Notes under the pieces: model-generated
Told to the model about the DNA's origin: nothing
Databases searched by the model: none
What the model saw: the letters and a program-made list of their open reading frames with translations, nothing else
Translations under genes and position numbers: made by a program
Assembly (NCBI RefSeq): GCF_008370495.1
Contig: NZ_VTUX01000004.1
Span: forward strand, 310,001 to 374,000
Direction of reading: 5' to 3'
Origin: Pseudohalioglobus sediminis
GTDB lineage: Bacteria; Pseudomonadota; Gammaproteobacteria; Pseudomonadales; Halieaceae
Length of the DNA: 64,000 nucleotides
Shown: one piece after another, positions 18,251 to 26,115 of the stretch
Numbering within the stretch: the stretch's first letter is position 1
Layout: each line of letters begins with the position of its first letter

Positions 18251-19081
18251 TCAGGCTGGCACCAGGGGTTTTCCGTCTTCGCAACGGCAGCGTGTCCAGG
18301 CGCCGGTTTCGAGGCAGTAGAGGGAGAGGGCGCCGCCCCAGACACAGCCCGTATCCAGGCCGATGGCGTTGGGTGTATCCGTTTTCCCCTGCAGGGAAGC
18401 CCAGTGACCGAACAGGATGCGATCATTGGCCGCCTTGCGATTCGCGTGGCTGAACCAGGCCGATACCTTTTTGCCATTGCAGGGTGGCTCCGGCCCCTTG
18501 TCCACCAGGTCCAGCCAGCCTTCCGCGGTGCAATACCGCATCCGGGTCAGGTAATTGGTGATCACGCGCAGTCGCTCCATGCCCTGCAGTTCCCTGGACC
18601 AGACTGCCGGCTCATTGCCATACATACTGCGCAGGAAGTTGACGCAATCCGGCCCGCGCAGCACTTTCTCCACCTCGCGGGCGCGCTTCATCGCCTTCTT
18701 GACGCTCCATTGCGGTGGAATGCCGGCATGGACCAGCGTGTACCCGTCCTGGTGATGAATCAACGGGCGGTGGATCAGCCACTCAATGAGTTCTGCACGG
18801 TCGGGCGCGTCCAGGATCTGGTCGAGGGTGTCTGACTTGGCCGGGCGCCTGGCGCCGCAGGCCACCGCCAGCAGGTGCAGGTCATGGTTGCCCAGCACCA
18901 CCACGGCACTGTCGCGCAACTGGTAAAAGAAGCGCAGGGTGTCGAGGCAGTTAGGCCCCCGGTTGACGATATCGCCAACCGACCAGAGCATATCCGTGGC
19001 CGGGTCGAACTTTACTGTCTGCAGCAGGCACTGTAGTGGCTCGAGACAGCCCTGAACATCACCTACAGCATAGGTGGCCAT
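18251..19081 (-). CDS. apaH: Bis(5'-nucleosyl)-tetraphosphatase, symmetrical
   Basis: A 276-residue metallophosphatase that splits Ap4A into two ADP, limiting alarmone and Np4-capped RNA. The phosphoesterase motifs are intact: GDVQG (7-11), GDIVNRGP and GNHDLH, plus a later TLVHAGIPP. Last gene of the rsmA-apaG-apaH unit; only one base separates it from the apaG stop, so the two are coupled. Confidence 0.97.
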   Translation of the reverse strand: MATYAVGDVQGCLEPLQCLLQTVKFDPATDMLWSVGDIVNRGPNCLDTLRFFYQLRDSAVVVLGNHDLHLLAVACGARRPAKSDTLDQILDAPDRAELIEWLIHRPLIHHQDGYTLVHAGIPPQWSVKKAMKRAREVEKVLRGPDCVNFLRSMYGNEPAVWSRELQGMERLRVITNYLTRMRYCTAEGWLDLVDKGPEPPCNGKKVSAWFSHANRKAANDRILFGHWASLQGKTDTPNAIGLDTGCVWGGALSLYCLETGAWTRCRCEDGKPLVPA

Positions 19082-19082
19082 A

Positions 19083-19496
19083 TCAATTCAGCGCCGTTGG
19101 CGTGTGCAGGGTGAAAGGCGAGATAGGCACTTCGAAGGTGGGCAGTTCCTCCGGCGCCATATCCATCGGTTCGCGCACCACCATGTAATAGCTGCCCTCC
19201 ATGTAGCCCAGGGGGGTGTTCAGGGTGGCACCGCTGGTATAGCGGTAGGAGTCGCCGGGTGCGATAACTGGCTGCTCACCGACAACCCCTTCGCCGCGCA
19301 CTTCCTGCACCGACTCATTGGCATCGGTGATTTTCCAGTGGCGCGACAGCAGTTGCACCGGCAGGTCACTGGCGTTGCTGATGGTGATGGTGTAGGCGAA
19401 GGTGTAGTGATTGTCTTCAGGATTGGAATGCGTCGGCAGGAAGGTGGTGACCACGCTGACGCCAATCAAGGAGGGGTTGAACGGGCTATTTTGCAT
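19083..19496 (-). CDS. apaG: ApaG (Co2+/Mg2+ efflux-associated FN3-like protein)
   Basis: A 137-residue ApaG/CorD protein with an immunoglobulin/fibronectin-III-like fold. Typical blocks are present: HYTFAYTITISN, LLSRHWKITDAN, GEGVVGEQPVI and a glycine-rich GATLNTPLGYMEGSY. The molecular role is uncertain. Its start lies 11 bp inside the end of rsmA and its stop is one base from apaH, as in E. coli. Confidence 0.96.
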   Translation of the reverse strand: MQNSPFNPSLIGVSVVTTFLPTHSNPEDNHYTFAYTITISNASDLPVQLLSRHWKITDANESVQEVRGEGVVGEQPVIAPGDSYRYTSGATLNTPLGYMEGSYYMVVREPMDMAPEELPTFEVPISPFTLHTPTALN

Positions 19497-20283
19497 GGAT
19501 GGCGTTCGCGATATCGATAAACTGGGTCAGTTCAAGCGTTTCTGCGCGGGCACCCGGGTCAATCCCGAGTCGCTCCAGGTCAGCGCTATCTATAAGCGCT
19601 TTCAGGTTGTTGCGCAAGGTTTTCCTGCGCTGGGCAAAGCTCGCCTGCACTACTTGCCGCAATTGTGCCTGGTCGCACTCGGGCCAGGGGCTGCTCTGCC
19701 ACGGCGTGAGGCGGACAATCGCTGACTGTACCTTTGGCGGCGGGTTAAACGCCTCCGGGGGCACGTCGAACAGATGTTCTACAGCGCACAGGTATTGCGC
19801 CATGATGCCGAGCCGGCCCCAGTGTTTGCTGCCCGGGCTGGCCGCCAGTCTCTGCACGACCTCCAGCTGCAGCATGAAATGCATGTCCCGAATGATCGGA
19901 GCGTCCTGCAGCAGCTTGAAAATCAGTGGCGTGGAGATGTTGTAGGGCAGGTTGCCGACCACCCGCAGCGGGGCGCCGGCGCTGCCGAGCGTGTTGAAGT
20001 CGAACTTCAGCGCGTCGGCGTTGTGCAGGGTGAAGTGCGGGTAGATGCTGAATGCGGCGAGCAGGCCGGGCACCAGGTCCCGGTCCAGTTCTATGACATC
20101 CAGCTGGCACTTCAGCGGCGCCAGGGTTTCCGTGAGCGCGCCCTGGCCCGGGCCGATCTCGACCACGTGATCCTGCTCGCTGGCGGCTATCGCGTCGGCA
20201 ATGCGGTCGATCACACTGTGATCAGTGAGAAAGTTCTGGCCGAAACGCTTGCGCGGTCGATGAGTGGCGGGCTTGCGGGACAT
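19486..20283 (-). CDS. rsmA: 16S rRNA dimethyladenosine transferase RsmA (KsgA)
   Basis: A 265-residue methyltransferase that dimethylates two adjacent adenosines in helix 45 of 16S rRNA late in 30S assembly. N-terminus KRFGQNFLTDHSVIDRI is canonical. The SAM motif I EIGPGQGALTE and the catalytic NLPYN are intact. The usual upstream partner pdxA lies 3.5 kb away here, beyond three unrelated genes, so rsmA must use its own promoter in the 110-bp gap shared with the ABC permease gene. Confidence 0.97.
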   Translation of the reverse strand: MSRKPATHRPRKRFGQNFLTDHSVIDRIADAIAASEQDHVVEIGPGQGALTETLAPLKCQLDVIELDRDLVPGLLAAFSIYPHFTLHNADALKFDFNTLGSAGAPLRVVGNLPYNISTPLIFKLLQDAPIIRDMHFMLQLEVVQRLAASPGSKHWGRLGIMAQYLCAVEHLFDVPPEAFNPPPKVQSAIVRLTPWQSSPWPECDQAQLRQVVQASFAQRRKTLRNNLKALIDSADLERLGIDPGARAETLELTQFIDIANAIHAK

Positions 20284-20346
20284 GGCAGCTATTGTACCTG
20301 TGGCAAAGGTGAATACTACTGATTGCCGCTAAGCGCAGCAGATTTC

Positions 20347-20355
20347 TGGTAAACT
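20347..20355 (+). promoter_or_regulatory. Possible extended -10 promoter for the ABC exporter
   Basis: TGG-TAAACT (20347-20355) fits an extended -10 element 39 bp upstream of the permease ATG. No good -35 lies at 16-18 bp. Weak call; this is the only stretch between divergent rsmA and the exporter. Confidence 0.35.
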
Positions 20356-20393
20356 CTTGGCGTTCAGTTCGGGCCCGCCCCAGCACAACGGAA

Positions 20394-21185
20394 ATGACAC
20401 ACTGCATGACCCTCCGACAGTATTTCAGTCTAATCGATGTCCAGGCGCGGATGCTGTTGAAGGCGGATTCCTCTAAATTCCGCCTCGGCTTTCTGTGGTG
20501 GTTTCTCGAACCCCTGCTCTGGGTTTCCGTGTTCTTCCTGGTCTTCAACCTGATTCTTGACTCGGGCCGCAAGTCCGGGGACTTTATCCTGTTCCTGGCC
20601 TGCGGCAAGTTCGCCTTTATCTGGTTTTCCAAGACCGTGACCCAGGCCTCCGGCAGCATCGTCGCCAGCCAGGGCCTGGTGGGTAAAGTGAACATGCCCA
20701 AATCCCTGTGGCCGATGTCGGCGATACAGGAAAGCCTGTACCGCCAGGCCACCGTCTACCTGCTGCTGTTGCTTATCCTGGTCCTGTTTGGCGTTTACCC
20801 GGGAGCGGCCTGGCTGTGGATGCTGCCGGTTGCCGCGGTCATGTACCTGGTCATCGTCGCCTGCGGCCTGATCGGCGCGTGCCTGGTGTGCATTTCCCGT
20901 GATTTCCAGAAAGTCATTCCCCTGGCAATGACCTTCCTGTTGTTTACCTCGGGCATATTCTGGGACGTGCGCGAAATCGCTGACCAGGACAAGGCCCGGC
21001 TGCTGTTGAATGCCAACCCACTCACCTTCATGGTGGATGCGCACCGGCAGGTGCTGATGTACAAGCAGGCGCCGGACCTGTGGCATCTCGGGCTTATCGC
21101 GCTGGGCGCAGTGCTACTGATCGTTGCGGCGATAGCGTACATGCGGCGCAACAGCCAGTACCTGGCGCTGAAGGTGCTGACCTGA
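20394..21185 (+). CDS. ABC-2 type exporter permease (Wzm/TagG/KpsM-like)
   Basis: A 263-residue inner-membrane permease of the polysaccharide-export type. About six hydrophobic segments are visible, beginning near residue 35 after a short amphipathic N-terminus. The motif FRLGFLWWFLEPLLW resembles the 'LG-WW-EPL' region of ABC-2 permeases for O-antigen, capsule or teichoic acid. A second ATG four codons in (20406) is possible; CGGAA precedes the first. Its stop overlaps the ATPase start by one base. It interrupts the usual pdxA-rsmA adjacency and runs against both. Confidence 0.88.
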   Translation: MTHCMTLRQYFSLIDVQARMLLKADSSKFRLGFLWWFLEPLLWVSVFFLVFNLILDSGRKSGDFILFLACGKFAFIWFSKTVTQASGSIVASQGLVGKVNMPKSLWPMSAIQESLYRQATVYLLLLLILVLFGVYPGAAWLWMLPVAAVMYLVIVACGLIGACLVCISRDFQKVIPLAMTFLLFTSGIFWDVREIADQDKARLLLNANPLTFMVDAHRQVLMYKQAPDLWHLGLIALGAVLLIVAAIAYMRRNSQYLALKVLT

Positions 21186-21904
21186 TGAGTGTTGTCGACA
21201 ACGACGTCATGCTGGAACTGCGCGACGTGTCCATTAATTTCCGCAGCAGTCCGGGCACCTTCGACCACGGTGTGCACCACGTGCTCGATCGCGTTTCATT
21301 CAAGCTGTATGAAAACGAAACCCTGGGCATCATCGGCCGCAACGGGGTGGGTAAGACCACCATGCTGCGGATCATGGCCGGTATCCTCGCGCCCACCAGC
21401 GGTGAGGTCATCACCCGCCAGGGCATAGCAGCCTCGCTGTTGACGCTGGGCCTGGGTCATCGCCTCGATCTCAATGGCCGCGACAACGCCATCCTCTCCG
21501 CCATGTTGCAGGGCGCGAGCAGGTCCGAGGCGCTGGGCTACCTGGAGGAGATCAAGGCCTTCTCGGAACTGGGTGACTCTTTCGAGGAGCCAGTGAGAAC
21601 GTACTCCGCGGGGATGAAGGCGCGGCTGGGGTTTACCACCGCGCTGTTGACCCATGTGGATGTTCTGCTGGTGGACGAGATTCTCAGCGTTGGCGACGCG
21701 CAGTTCAGGAGCAAGGCCGAAGAGGCCATGAAGCAGCGCATCAGCGGCAAGCAGACAGTCGTGTTCGTCTCACACTCCGCGCCGCAGGTGAAAGACCTGT
21801 GCGACCGGGTATTGTGGATCGACCAGGGCCGGATACGTGCCCAGGGTGATCCGGCGGATACCATTGCCCAGTATCGCGATTCGATGAAGCCCGCCCGGGA
21901 CTGA
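21185..21904 (+). CDS. ABC exporter ATPase (Wzt/TagH/KpsT-like, no C-terminal sugar-binding domain)
   Basis: A 239-residue ATPase for the preceding permease. I chose the ATG at 21185 because it overlaps the permease stop (TGATG); the longer frame reads back through the permease gene. Walker A is GRNGVGKTT, the signature is YSAGMKARLGF (the degenerate form seen in polysaccharide exporters), Walker B is VLLVDEIL and the switch His lies in VFVSHS. At 239 residues it lacks the C-terminal carbohydrate-binding domain of O9a-type Wzt, so the exported molecule is probably not recognised by a terminal sugar cap on this subunit. Confidence 0.88.
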   Translation: MSVVDNDVMLELRDVSINFRSSPGTFDHGVHHVLDRVSFKLYENETLGIIGRNGVGKTTMLRIMAGILAPTSGEVITRQGIAASLLTLGLGHRLDLNGRDNAILSAMLQGASRSEALGYLEEIKAFSELGDSFEEPVRTYSAGMKARLGFTTALLTHVDVLLVDEILSVGDAQFRSKAEEAMKQRISGKQTVVFVSHSAPQVKDLCDRVLWIDQGRIRAQGDPADTIAQYRDSMKPARD

Positions 21905-21941
21905 AACAGCAGCTACGGCAACGCCGCCCGCTGCACAGTCC

Positions 21942-23738
21942 TCAGGCGATATTCCTGGCGGCCTCGCGTATCTCTTCCCAGCCCGCCAACGCACAACCGA
22001 AACCACCCGCAAGATGGCGGAACTGCTCCAGTAGCTGGGCGTCGCTCTGGTCCCCCGGCACCTTGGGTAGGTCGCTGATGGCGGCGACTTCCTGCATGGC
22101 CCGGTTCACGTTGGCCGCACTTTCCTGTAGCCAGGATTCCCAGCTCGGGGGGCGGATACTGCCGTCCTGCAGCAGAGTGTTCAGTTTGTAGATTTCCAGG
22201 CCCTGGGCCTCTGCCACGTCACGGCGGAACAGGGTGGTCAGGCCGCGGTCATCGGTCTGCGACAGCTGTGTGGCCAGGTTGGCCAGGCCCTGCAGGCGCG
22301 TTTCCGGGCTGATACCCAGCTCGTAAACCGTGTGGTCGGTCACGTACTTGCCTACGCTGAACAGGCCCTTGCCGGTTTTCGCTGGCGGCGTCGCCGGTGC
22401 CTGTCGTTCCTCGAGCGGCAGGTGCGGTACGCACCAGGTGTAGCTGAGCACGGCCGCCTGTGGGTGCATATGCTCGGTCATCGCCCCGAACAGGTAGTCC
22501 TCGCCGCGGAACACCGGGAAATAAGGCGGCAACAGCCGCGCGTTGTCCAGCCCGGTGGCCTGTGACATCACTGCCATCTTGGAAAAGCAGGGTCGGGGGT
22601 GGCCGAGCCAGTAGCTGCGCGATGCCAGGGCGCCCTCCAGGCCGCCGGGGAATGCGGCGAGGCGTTTGGCGGTATCGTCCTGGGCAAAGTAGATCCAGTC
22701 GGTATCCGGTGATCCGGGGTCGCCCAGGGTGCCACACTGGGTGACCAGGACCGGAGACCCGGCATCCCAGAAACGCAGGTAGCTGGCGCTGGTATCCTGC
22801 AGGTCAGCGGGGCTGATGTCGCCCGCGTTGAGCTTCTGCAGGGCCTGGCCCATGTTCAGGCCAAGGCACTGGCTGTGGCCGGCGATAGGGTCGAAATCAG
22901 CAGCAGTGGTGCTGGCGAGCATCTCCTGGTGATTGGCGTAAAAATCGGCCTCACGCTCGGCGGTGCCGAACTCAATGCCCGGTTTGCTATGTGGCGAGAC
23001 CAGGGCGCTGCACAGGACATCATCATCAAGGATGACCGCGCGTTTGCCCACCGACAGCAGCAGGCAGAGGTTCCTTGCCAGGCCATAGGTTTTCTCCCCG
23101 GACCAGCGCTGGCGGTCGATGAGGAAGCGGATGCCCTCTTCCCGCTGCGGGCAGGCCGCGATCAGGTCCGCCATCAGTTGCGCGGCCTCTTGCGCGCCGA
23201 AGTACTGCATGTCGCGGGGCGATGTAAGGTTGAACTGGGCAACGGCTTCGCGGTTGCGCTCGGCATTGGCTGCATCGCGGGAATCGTCCACCAGGAACAG
23301 CGCCTCGTGCCGGCTCAGGTTGCTGGTGCGCAACATGGATTCCAGTAACCTCTCCACCGCGGCCGGGCGATCGCAGGTGATAATGAATGCGCGCGTGGCC
23401 GGCAGGTCAACAGCCGGCGCAACCGAAGCGTTGATACGCTCGCACACCGCCGTCGCAGGGGTCATCAAACCGGCGTCGCGCAGCATTGCCAGTACGTTCA
23501 TCACGTCAGCGGTCTGGCCAGCCAGTTCGGGCACCGTAGAGGTCAGGTGCCTGGCGTGTTGCTCCATGGTGCGGAAGGTACGGCAGGTCTGCATGCTCTG
23601 GGCGACAGGCGGCGCGACCAGCACCTGGGCATCGCTGAACTTGTCGATGAGTAACACCGCACCGCTGAGCATGGGTACTACTTCGCATTCGGTGAATGCG
23701 TACAGTTCGGGTGCAGCGGCGGGGTCTGGGTTGCTCAT
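21942..23738 (-). CDS. PqqD-like domain fused to a GT-A-type glycosyltransferase-like protein
   Basis: A 598-residue protein I do not recognise as a named family. Residues about 14-93 (E-x-V-x-P-M-L-S-G-A-V-L-L-I-D ... AMLRDAGLM) look like a PqqD/RiPP-recognition winged helix. Residues about 115-440 look like a GT-A fold: start RAFIITCDRPAAVERLLESM, LFLVDDS, a DxD-like triplet ILDDDVL (D238-D240), and an acidic FRGEDYLFG (411-418) as a possible catalytic region. The C-terminal 140 residues are helical. No signal peptide, so cytoplasmic. It is convergent with the ABC exporter and has its own promoter. The substrate may be a peptide, lipid or glycan; both domain readings are by eye. Confidence 0.6.
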   Translation of the reverse strand: MSNPDPAAAPELYAFTECEVVPMLSGAVLLIDKFSDAQVLVAPPVAQSMQTCRTFRTMEQHARHLTSTVPELAGQTADVMNVLAMLRDAGLMTPATAVCERINASVAPAVDLPATRAFIITCDRPAAVERLLESMLRTSNLSRHEALFLVDDSRDAANAERNREAVAQFNLTSPRDMQYFGAQEAAQLMADLIAACPQREEGIRFLIDRQRWSGEKTYGLARNLCLLLSVGKRAVILDDDVLCSALVSPHSKPGIEFGTAEREADFYANHQEMLASTTAADFDPIAGHSQCLGLNMGQALQKLNAGDISPADLQDTSASYLRFWDAGSPVLVTQCGTLGDPGSPDTDWIYFAQDDTAKRLAAFPGGLEGALASRSYWLGHPRPCFSKMAVMSQATGLDNARLLPPYFPVFRGEDYLFGAMTEHMHPQAAVLSYTWCVPHLPLEERQAPATPPAKTGKGLFSVGKYVTDHTVYELGISPETRLQGLANLATQLSQTDDRGLTTLFRRDVAEAQGLEIYKLNTLLQDGSIRPPSWESWLQESAANVNRAMQEVAAISDLPKVPGDQSDAQLLEQFRHLAGGFGCALAGWEEIREAARNIA

Positions 23739-23769
23739 GAGTTGCTCTTGGCAGGCTGGAAAAGCGCCA

Positions 23770-23798
23770 ATTCTAGGGCTGTGGGTGGTGGGTGTAAA
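23770..23798 (-). promoter_or_regulatory. Sigma-70 promoter for the PqqD-GT gene
   Basis: Minus strand TTTACA (23793-23798), 17-bp spacer, TAGAAT (23770-23775): five of six matches in each box. It lies in the 82-bp gap after pdxA, so the downstream gene is an independent transcription unit. Confidence 0.65.
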
Positions 23799-23820
23799 CC
23801 GAACGCTGCAATGGCTGCGC

Positions 23821-24819
23821 TCAAGTGCGGCTGGTTGCGCGTGCAGACATTGCCATTTGCTGCGCCATGCGCAGCGCTGCCTGCAGGCTGGAAGCGTCGG
23901 CTTTACCGCTGCCCGCGAGGTCCAGGGCGGTGCCGTGGTCCACGGAGGTGCGCACGATGGGCAAGCCCAGGGTAACGTTCACAGCCTTGCCGAAACCAGC
24001 GTACTTGAGTGTAGGCAGCCCCTGGTCGTGGTACATGGCGAAGACGACGTCGCAATCATCCAGCACCTTTGGGTTGAAAGCCGTGTCCGCGGGGAGCGGG
24101 CCGGCCAAATCCAGCCCGCGCTCGCGCAGCGTATCCAGGGTTGGAATGATGACCTCGAGTTCCTCCCTGCCCAGGTGACCTCCCTCGCCCGCGTGCGGAT
24201 TCAGGCCCAGGACAGCGATACGGGGCTGCTCAAGGCCGAACTGGCGGCGCAGGTCCCGGTCCACGATGGTAAGGGTTTCTTCCAGCAGTGCGGGGGTAAT
24301 GGCATCGGGCACGTCGCGCAGCGGCAAGTGCGTTGTTGCCAGTGCTACGCGCAGGGAGTCACTTGCCAGCATCATCACCACGCGGGGTGTGCCGGTGCGC
24401 TCGGCCAGCAGTTCCGTATGGCCGGAAAAGGGAATGCCGGCATCATTGATCACCGACTTCTGTACCGGTGCGGTCACCAGGGCGGCAAAGGTGCCCTCCA
24501 GGCAGCCTGTTATCGCTTGCTCGAGCGTCGCGATAACGTAGCCGGCATTGGCGGTCTCAAGCTTGCCGGCGACGCAGGGCGCGGCAAGCGCAACCGGCGC
24601 CACGGGCAGTGAGCCGGCGGTATGACGGGCAGGGGGTGCAGAGGGGTCGAAATCAGTGAGTTCGATACGCAGGCCCAGTTGCTGCGCTCTCTGCCGCAGC
24701 AGTGCCGGGTCGCCGATGGCCACGATTTCCGCATCCCAGTCCAGCGCCGCAATAGCGAGGGTGATATCCGGCCCTATACCGGCTGGTTCGCCCGGGGTGA
24801 GGGCCAGTCTGGGTATCAA
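23821..24819 (-). CDS. pdxA: 4-hydroxythreonine-4-phosphate dehydrogenase
   Basis: A 332-residue enzyme of pyridoxal phosphate synthesis that oxidises 4-phospho-hydroxy-threonine. The start [17 protein letters not shown] is canonical. Metal and substrate histidines are visible in [20 protein letters not shown] and [12 protein letters not shown], and the C-terminal [14 protein letters not shown] is conserved. It starts 18 bp after surA as in the classic lptD-surA-pdxA order; the expected next gene, rsmA, has been displaced. Confidence 0.97.
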
Positions 24820-24837
24820 GGCAGCGTGCCCCGGCCG

Positions 24838-26115
24838 CTACTTGATGTCGACAAACGCTTCATCGCGTATTTGCCGCAGCCATGCGTCCAGCTCTTCCTG
24901 GTATTTACGCTGGTGCAGGTAGTTCTTCGCCTGGTTACGCACGGCGGTGTCGGTCATATCCTGCTCCCGGCGGTCCAGAACCTCGAGGATATGCCAGCCG
25001 AATTCACTGCGTACGGGGTCGGAAATTTCACCTACCGGGGTCGCCGCCATGGCCGCATCAAACTCGGGAACCATCTGCCCGGGGCTGGTCCAGCCGAGGT
25101 CGCCGCCTTCCTGTGCCGACCCGATATCTTCGGAGTATTCGCGCGCCAGTTCAGCGAAATCCTCGCCGTCCAGGGCGCGTTGCTTGAGCTCGGCTACCAA
25201 CGCCCGCGCCTGGTCGTCGCTCATGATTTCGGAGGGTTTGACCAGGATGTGCCGCACATGCGTCTGTGCAACTACCATGTTCTCGCCGCCGCGGCGGTCG
25301 GCCATGTTGATCAGGTGGAAGCCGCTCTCCGAGCGCACCAGGTCGGTTTCACCCTTGGCCAGGCCCGGTGCAATGTCCGCGAACAGGGAGGGCAGGTCAT
25401 CCAGGCGCCGCCAGCCCAGGTTGCCGCCGCTGAAAGCGTAGGGCCCGGGGGCACTCACCGCCTTGTCGAAGGGTGTGCCGGAGCGTATTTCCGCCAATAT
25501 CCTGTTGACGTAGGCCTCGGCACGGGCGACTTCATCGGCCGGAGCACTCGGGGATACCGCCAGCAGGGCGTGAAGAATCTGGTATTCAGGCTGCGACAGC
25601 TTGCGGCCGTCCTCCGTGGCCAGGAAGTTGTCGACTTCCTGTTCGCTGATCTCGATGCGCTGGTTGACGTTGCCGGCCTGGACGCGCTGGATAACGATCT
25701 CCTTGCGTATCTGTTCCCGCATCGCCTGGTAGGACTGGCCCTGCGATTCCAGCGCCGTGCGGAACTGCTCCAGGTCCATGCCGTTCTGTGCCGCGACCCG
25801 TTGCATGGCGCTGTTGAGTTGGGCGTCGGAAATGCGCACGCCCACCCGCTGGCCTTTCTGTATCTGGATGCTCTCCAGTATCAGTCGGTCCAGTGTCTCG
25901 CGGATGAGTACATCCTCAGGCGGCATTTCGACGCCCCGGGACTCCAGCGTTTCGCGCAACTGGTTGAGGCGCTCGCGCAGTTCGCTGGCCATGATCACAT
26001 CGTCTTCAACGATGGCCACGACCTGGTCAAGCATTACAGTTTCGGCCCTGGCGTTGCCGCCAATGAGGCACAGGGCTGCCAGTAACAGGCAGGGCAGCGT
26101 CGTTTTAATATTCAC
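24838..26115 (-). CDS. surA: Periplasmic peptidyl-prolyl isomerase/chaperone SurA
   Basis: A 425-residue outer-membrane-protein chaperone. A Sec signal peptide (about 1-24, ending NARA) precedes the N-terminal chaperone domain (VVAIVEDDVIMASELRERL). Two parvulin domains follow, near 170-270 and 285-385; the second has the fuller parvulin pattern (ARALVAELKQRALDGEDFAELAREYSED, split here by position). It overlaps the end of lptD by 11 bp, coupling the chaperone to one of its main clients. Confidence 0.96.
   Translation of the reverse strand: MNIKTTLPCLLLAALCLIGGNARAETVMLDQVVAIVEDDVIMASELRERLNQLRETLESRGVEMPPEDVLIRETLDRLILESIQIQKGQRVGVRISDAQLNSAMQRVAAQNGMDLEQFRTALESQGQSYQAMREQIRKEIVIQRVQAGNVNQRIEISEQEVDNFLATEDGRKLSQPEYQILHALLAVSPSAPADEVARAEAYVNRILAEIRSGTPFDKAVSAPGPYAFSGGNLGWRRLDDLPSLFADIAPGLAKGETDLVRSESGFHLINMADRRGGENMVVAQTHVRHILVKPSEIMSDDQARALVAELKQRALDGEDFAELAREYSEDIGSAQEGGDLGWTSPGQMVPEFDAAMAATPVGEISDPVRSEFGWHILEVLDRREQDMTDTAVRNQAKNYLHQRKYQEELDAWLRQIRDEAFVDIK

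Follow-up and report, generated by a model that had tools for sequence, protein, structure and literature searches.

A predicted RRE–glycosyltransferase fusion with a surface-polysaccharide exporter nearby in Pseudohalioglobus sediminis

The subject of this report is a 64,000-nucleotide stretch of the Pseudohalioglobus sediminis genome (contig NZ_VTUX01000004.1, positions 310,001 to 374,000; hereafter the window) and, within it, a gene for a 598-residue protein that appears to join a PqqD-like RiPP recognition element (RRE; RiPP, ribosomally synthesized and post-translationally modified peptide) to a glycosyltransferase resembling those of family GT75. Read along the window, the minus-strand genes apaH, apaG and rsmA are followed by a permease and an ATPase gene on the plus strand, then by the 598-residue gene on the minus strand and, on that same strand, by pdxA, surA and lptD. 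A previous sequence-only reading, made by a model from the letters of the window, had described a permease, an ATPase and a convergent 598-residue gene between pdxA and rsmA, and this gene order was confirmed. RsmA, PdxA, ApaG, the permease (ABC2_membrane) and the ATPase (ABC_tran) were identified by Pfam, while apaH, surA and lptD are names that we take from reading the translations. The G+C content of the block is 0.59-0.65 and that of the flanks is similar, and no Rfam family was found at window positions 19000-25000. A recent mobile insertion was rejected, as the large gene is present in 40 of the 61 genomes of the family. The features are collected in Table 1; G, L and C numbers below are our handles for genomes, loci and contigs.

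Table 1. Features of the locus, in window coordinates (AF2, AlphaFold2; pLDDT and pTM, its confidence scores; aa, amino acids)
Feature	Position	Strand	Evidence
Wzm/TarG-type ABC-2 permease, 263 aa	20394..21185	+	ABC2_membrane E 9.5e-9; PDB TarG E 5.4e-17
Wzt/TarH-type ATPase, 239 aa	21185..21904	+	ABC_tran E 1.3e-18; PDB TarH E 2.2e-43
Predicted RRE-GT75-like fusion protein, 598 aa	21942..23738	-	AF2 model pLDDT 91.9, pTM 0.91
GT75-like catalytic part (GT-A, core, C-terminal helices), residues 108-598	21945..23417	-	
His439, likely counterpart of MtdL His287	22422..22424	-	invariant 40/40; register by eye, predicted strand end
Arg411-Gly-Glu-Asp414, counterpart of MtdL Arg257..Asp260	22497..22508	-	R411 and D414 invariant 40/40, same spacing
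Ser392-Gln393, counterpart of MtdL Ser228-Gln229	22560..22565	-	invariant 40/40, hhalign
DDD motif, residues 238-240 (MtdL DDD109-111)	23019..23027	-	invariant 40/40
Predicted RRE (PqqD-like) domain, residues 8-112	23403..23717	-	separate AF2 model pLDDT 86.9, structural matches
Promoter-like boxes TTTACA-17-TAGAAT before the fusion gene	23770..23798	-	kept in 8/8 genomes of the genus

The large gene is a real gene, since its protein was matched 41 times across 40 genomes, always without an internal stop, and 49 columns are invariant across an alignment of 40 rows, made up of the window and 39 further loci with the truncated copy L072 left out. A pseudogene was rejected on the same absence of stops. 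The protein reached no Pfam or NCBIfam cut-off; its one named match, 77% identical, belongs to Pseudohalioglobus lutimaris (Halieaceae), and PDB sequence searches returned either nothing or only matches with E 0.77 or worse. A PHROGs search of the 40 members gave 0 families, and a search among viral folds returned glycosyltransferases along with unnamed proteins, at a TM-score of at most 0.28 on the query. The fusion is common in the Halieaceae and rare outside the family: the 40 genomes with matches, out of 97 searched and the window's own included, all lie within the family, and none of the 36 genomes from other families of the order had one. When the alignment was used to search the class, 13 of 369 genomes matched, its own among them, near full length in G421, G460 and G241, partially in G106 and G101, and weakly over some 90-100 residues in seven others; in the phylum there were 5 matches in 398 genomes, namely its own, G460, the near-full-length G836 and two that were short and weak.

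The earlier claim of a PqqD-like domain at the N terminus was supported by structure prediction. The structural matches of the separately modelled domain were largely RiPP enzymes, the RRE of PbtF and PqqD itself included. Most of the matched chains carry RREs; RRE or RRE-like domains occur in TigE, TruD, ThcOx, MadB, MibB, NisB and MccB. The Pfam family PqqD (PF05402) matched neither the fusion protein nor its 40 members; most RREs that belong to other classes escape PF05402 (PMC7470986). A PF05402 gene is present elsewhere in the window's genome (L001, G000 C23:119213-119413), and a role of the fusion in pyrroloquinoline quinone biosynthesis was rejected because the genome's match lies there.

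Ahead of the RRE, 19 of the 40 homologues (e.g., L041, L043, L045-L050, L052 and L054), as well as the distant L076, carry an N-terminal tail with the motif [ST]YS[FYLW]; other N-terminal matches to the motif are scattered among the loci compared. Such a tail would suit an RRE that is vestigial, or occupied by the protein's own N terminus (xSYSY/F), and that regulates a glycan glycosyltransferase without any foreign peptide, and possibly vestigial RREs are mentioned in PMC7470986. The window's genus lacks this tail, yet the domain is conserved, with a mean column identity of 50% over the 40 rows, and we regard this explanation as unlikely.

Behind the RRE, the GT-A glycosyltransferase proposed earlier was likewise borne out by prediction and could be refined to a GT75-like one. 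VIA-align placed seven GT75 entries first (OsUAM2 at 22.2, MtdL at 21.5-22.1), over 303-311 residues reaching into the C-terminal helices, with the next fold at 15.2 over 218 residues; an ordinary GT2 enzyme was rejected, as GT75 is thereby set apart by 6 to 7 Z units, although no GT75 entry is among the first 50 of Foldseek. A match that covers both the core and the helix domains is telling, because PMC9937993 reports no meaningful PDB counterpart for those of MtdL. The same paper names DDD109-111, S228-Q229, R257, D260 and H287 as critical residues of MtdL. In the fusion, the model suggests a GT-A fold with the GT75 core and C-terminal helix domain; the DDD motif and the metal-binding histidine (D238-D240 and H439) are found in 40/40 members, with the register of the histidine set by eye, and the substrate-site residues S392, Q393, R411 and D414, also in 40/40, were placed by weak hhalign alignments. 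Aligned over residues 230-598, R411 and D414 fall on R257 and D260. In the hhalign controls, one of 150 column shuffles equalled the score and the reversed control lay far below it. Six distant relatives, read by eye, all retain D414 and H439, and the DDD motif is present in the five that cover it. Pfam RGP (PF03214) had no match in the fusion protein, its 40 members or its own genome.

Two sets of proteins related to the catalytic part stand apart. In G106 (L088:4444-8328), a 1294-residue protein combines FkbH and acyl carrier domains with the same GT75-like catalytic part; these domains lie ahead of it, which would suit an N-terminal module that has a presenting role. L090, L091, L092 and L093 encode proteins of about 560-625 residues with a weakly related glycosyltransferase N-terminal half, each beside what we take, from its translation, to be a gene resembling thiamine pyrophosphate enzymes; genes that we likewise read as sulfotransferase-like or methyltransferase-like lie near some of them.

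For the exporter, the earlier assignment of the permease and ATPase to the polysaccharide-export type is backed by Pfam, NCBIfam and PDB matches, the last to TarG/TarH and O-antigen exporters. The best NCBIfam families were galactan Wzm/RfbD for the permease (29 bits against a cut-off of 380) and galactan Wzt/RfbE for the ATPase (152.5 bits against 400). The ATG of the ATPase, as read from the sequence, overlaps the permease stop, and at 239 residues the ATPase has no room for a carbohydrate-binding domain at its C terminus. The proposed co-occurrence of fusion and exporter in relatives held in part. A Wzm search of 58 genomes gave 42 matches at E 0.001; when close matches were defined as E 1e-70 or better, a cut set at a gap in the list, and 37 family genomes were counted, they were present in 22/26 fusion-positive and 3/11 negative genomes, and with one genome per genus in 14/17 and 3/11 (P 0.006, tree not modelled). 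At the loose E 0.001, the numbers were 23/26 and 9/11 and the association was gone; the link is thus confined to close Wzm matches.

The firmest associate of the fusion gene is a polytopic membrane protein, c5, so described from reading its translation, which has no Pfam or NCBIfam family (FixQ, at E 0.007, is under the cut-off) and no match in a PDB sequence search. It resembles, in our estimation, a GT-C enzyme and is probably of that type. Matches to c5 were found in 33/40 fusion-positive and 1/21 negative genomes (P 2.5e-9), or 15/17 and 0/11 with one genome per genus (P 3.6e-6), in both cases with the tree not modelled. Of the 39 loci with a visible neighbour, 13 have c5 and 2 have a GT4 glycosyltransferase gene as the next co-directional gene downstream, and GT4 together with other cluster members resembling polyprenyl-phosphate-sugar synthase (PpgS-like) stand with the fusion gene in L041, L050 and L072. 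The window's genome has c5 (860 residues), GT4 and a PpgS-like GT2 in a row on another contig (L188:9481-13958, G000 C22), the last scoring 87.7 bits against a cut-off of 370. G029 has two copies of the fusion gene (L043 and L045), each with pdxA upstream and c5 downstream.

These associations bear on the possibility that the exporter and the fusion are neighbours by synteny only and work apart, the enzyme having some role particular to this lineage and unconnected with polysaccharides. Exporter and fusion gene adjoin directly and convergently in just 4/41 loci, the Wzm association depends on the cut-off, and where pdxA is not its neighbour, the fusion gene sits next to genes that we read as HD-GYP-, EAL- or BioA-like. 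The associations of c5 and of close Wzm both survive genus thinning, however, and this account seems to us rather improbable. The exporter is not part of a single inserted block, as had been supposed, because it stands beside rsmA also in genomes that have no fusion gene (G012, G017). Of the 25 loci with a close Wzm match, that of the window among them, 19 have rsmA within the 1.5-kb flank, and five (G031, G035, G012, G023 and G017) have pdxA beyond Wzt with no fusion gene between. Placement of the exporter between these two genes is thus a distinct arrangement and a separate feature of the lineage.

In some relatives, the exporter has company of a different kind. A GlfT1-like gene adjoins Wzt in G002, G003, G014 and G024 and is one gene away in G001; genes like Glf (UDP-galactopyranose mutase) and WcaJ follow in G001, G002, G003 and G024. 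For G002, these calls come from family searches, and the GlfT1-like, Glf and WcaJ-like genes beside Wzt (L127:5288-8838) form a galactan-like polysaccharide locus; elsewhere, the names are our own from reading the translations. A polysaccharide cluster lies between the exporter and the fusion gene in four relatives (G001, G002, G003 and G014). Since the Glf/GlfT1-like pair is next to the exporter or one gene from it in G001, G002, G003 and G024, furanose chemistry fits the locus, and the main rival explanation is that the fusion, like GT75, is a nucleoside diphosphate-sugar pyranose-furanose mutase that supplies a furanose donor for the exported polysaccharide, with the RRE as a scaffold. It draws on the likeness to MtdL and UAM in fold and motifs, and searches for Glf found no match in G000 (the window's own genome), G004, G006 and G007 and two short matches in G005, so another mutase could be needed in the four without a match. 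It leaves the RRE unexplained, and the fusion coexists with Glf in other relatives. GT75 mutase activity, moreover, needs the autoglycosylated Arg159 of MtdL (PMC9937993). No arginine is invariant between residues 241 and 391 of the fusion in the 40 rows, and the hhalign column for Arg159 is variable, with a weak register. The most conserved arginines there are R374 (38/40), R262 (37/40) and R359 (32/40), of which R374 or R262 could in principle stand in. On balance, a mutase is unlikely.

The sequence-only reading had recognised no precursor peptide gene nearby, and a search for conserved short open reading frames at 41 loci likewise found none among 549 intergenic frames of 20-130 residues within 5 kb; frames that overlap a larger gene, contigs that end early and precursors encoded elsewhere fall outside its scope. 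Small frames that did recur lay over apaG, in one stretch shared by L053, L055 and L059 (with parts in L061 and L064), which in L053 proved to be rRNA (23S and 5S), and in another shared by L058, L060 and L062. A cluster of the RiPP kind, with a peptide modified by the enzyme and exported by the adjacent ABC pair, would make use of the RRE fold and the exporter, both of which are supported. It is very unlikely, given the lack of a conserved short frame at the locus and the close exporters without a fusion gene in G012, G013 and G017. Peptide export by the adjacent pump is unsupported, because no such frame lies nearby and the pump's relatives export polymers. The earlier idea of a system that modifies and exports a product is supported in part, by the predicted RRE fold, GT-A fold and polysaccharide-type exporter; the single block had to be corrected, and peptide export has no support.

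From the predicted folds, the conserved motifs and the genomic co-occurrence, we infer, as the likeliest reading though at somewhat less than even chances, that the fusion transfers sugar in a surface-glycan pathway, with a metal as cofactor and a docked peptide. The glycosyltransferase would be soluble and carry a docking domain of its own, the RRE, to hold a peptide segment, which may be the leader of a peptide encoded elsewhere or the tail of a protein that partners it. The GT75-like domain would bind a nucleotide sugar and a metal via DDD and His439, and, with Asp414 as base, the sugar might be moved to an acceptor other than an arginine of the protein itself. The product could then enter a surface-glycan pathway with c5, GT4 and the PpgS-like protein, and the Wzm/Wzt pair would export the polymer. 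A more specific version, in which the RRE-held ribosomal peptide or protein tail is itself the sugar acceptor, glycosylated by a GT75-like domain without its own acceptor arginine to become primer or anchor for the c5/GT4/PpgS-like polysaccharide exported by Wzm/Wzt, is decidedly improbable; it would link recognition of the RiPP type with the assembly of polysaccharides.

Several observations weigh against a peptide-docked sugar transferase. The best Foldseek E for the RRE domain was 0.025, with none below 0.001, and its fold matches extended to hydroxylases and methyltransferases that have a winged helix like it. For the catalytic part, the top Foldseek ranks were TarP, RmlT and GalNAc-transferases, with no GT75 entry in the first 50, and hhalign against the GT75 profile gave P 0.009 (range 0.009-0.013) and a probability of 4-5%, near noise; with residues 370-598 (P 0.16), R411 was not placed on R257. 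The six distant relatives have R411 in 3/6 and Ser-Gln in 0/6. The link to a surface glycan is one of co-occurrence: seven fusion-positive genomes have no c5 match, the Wzm association is lost at the loose cut-off, HD-GYP-, EAL- or BioA-like neighbours occur in other relatives, and Glf, the marker of the galactan-like cluster, was not found in the window's genome. That the search for short frames turned up neither a precursor nor an acceptor counts on the same side.

Among known systems, the fusion is best filed as a variant of the RRE-glycosyltransferase fusions, not as a member of GT75, with the GT75-like part and the polysaccharide setting as what is new. Compared with GT75 (MtdL and plant UAM/RGP), it has no Pfam RGP match, 12-16% identity, no invariant Arg159 counterpart, an extra N-terminal RRE and a longer core. 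Fusions of an RRE to a glycosyltransferase were predicted by RRE-Finder (PMC7470986) and, in a 2025 paper, named by Pfam PF00535 (PMC12710340); both sources give them as predictions. Here a weak PF00535 match occurs in 5/40 members (best E 0.002), and no RiPP precursor was found at this locus. The Wzm/Wzt and TarGH polymer exporters belong to the same permease and ATPase families as the window's pair. A likeness to the mycobacterial galactan exporter lies in the Glf and GlfT1-like genes near the exporter in some relatives, Glf and GlfT1 being genes of the galactan pathway (PMC10951656); unlike galactan-type loci, the window's genome has no polysaccharide-synthesis cluster between exporter and fusion gene. 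In the literature searched, no RRE fusion to a GT75-like enzyme and no tie of one to Wzm/Wzt was found, although supplementary tables may list members.

A fusion of this kind with a surface-polysaccharide pump nearby is a promising but unproven lead. An RRE is usually read as a sign of ribosomal peptide modification, and here a predicted one is joined to a GT75-like enzyme that is tied by gene content to glycan genes, not to a peptide gene, and is kept across a marine bacterial family. Should the RRE dock a peptide, recognition of the RiPP kind would extend to cell-surface glycan assembly; should it dock none, the fold has another use, which calls for caution when genomes are mined by their RREs. 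The arginine that GT75 enzymes self-glycosylate appears to be lost, and this leads to a testable prediction on the acceptor.

The strong promoter of its own that had been ascribed to the fusion gene corresponds to the boxes TTTACA-17-TAGAAT. The count of promoter-like motifs in the region is not above chance (1 found against 1.1 expected), and the boxes are absent in G014, which belongs to another genus. Their sequence type and spacing are kept in the window's genus, where TTTACA, exactly 17 bases and TA(G/A)A(A/C)T precede the gene in 8/8 genomes. Since the fusion gene follows pdxA on the same strand after a gap of 82 bp, read-through from pdxA is possible.

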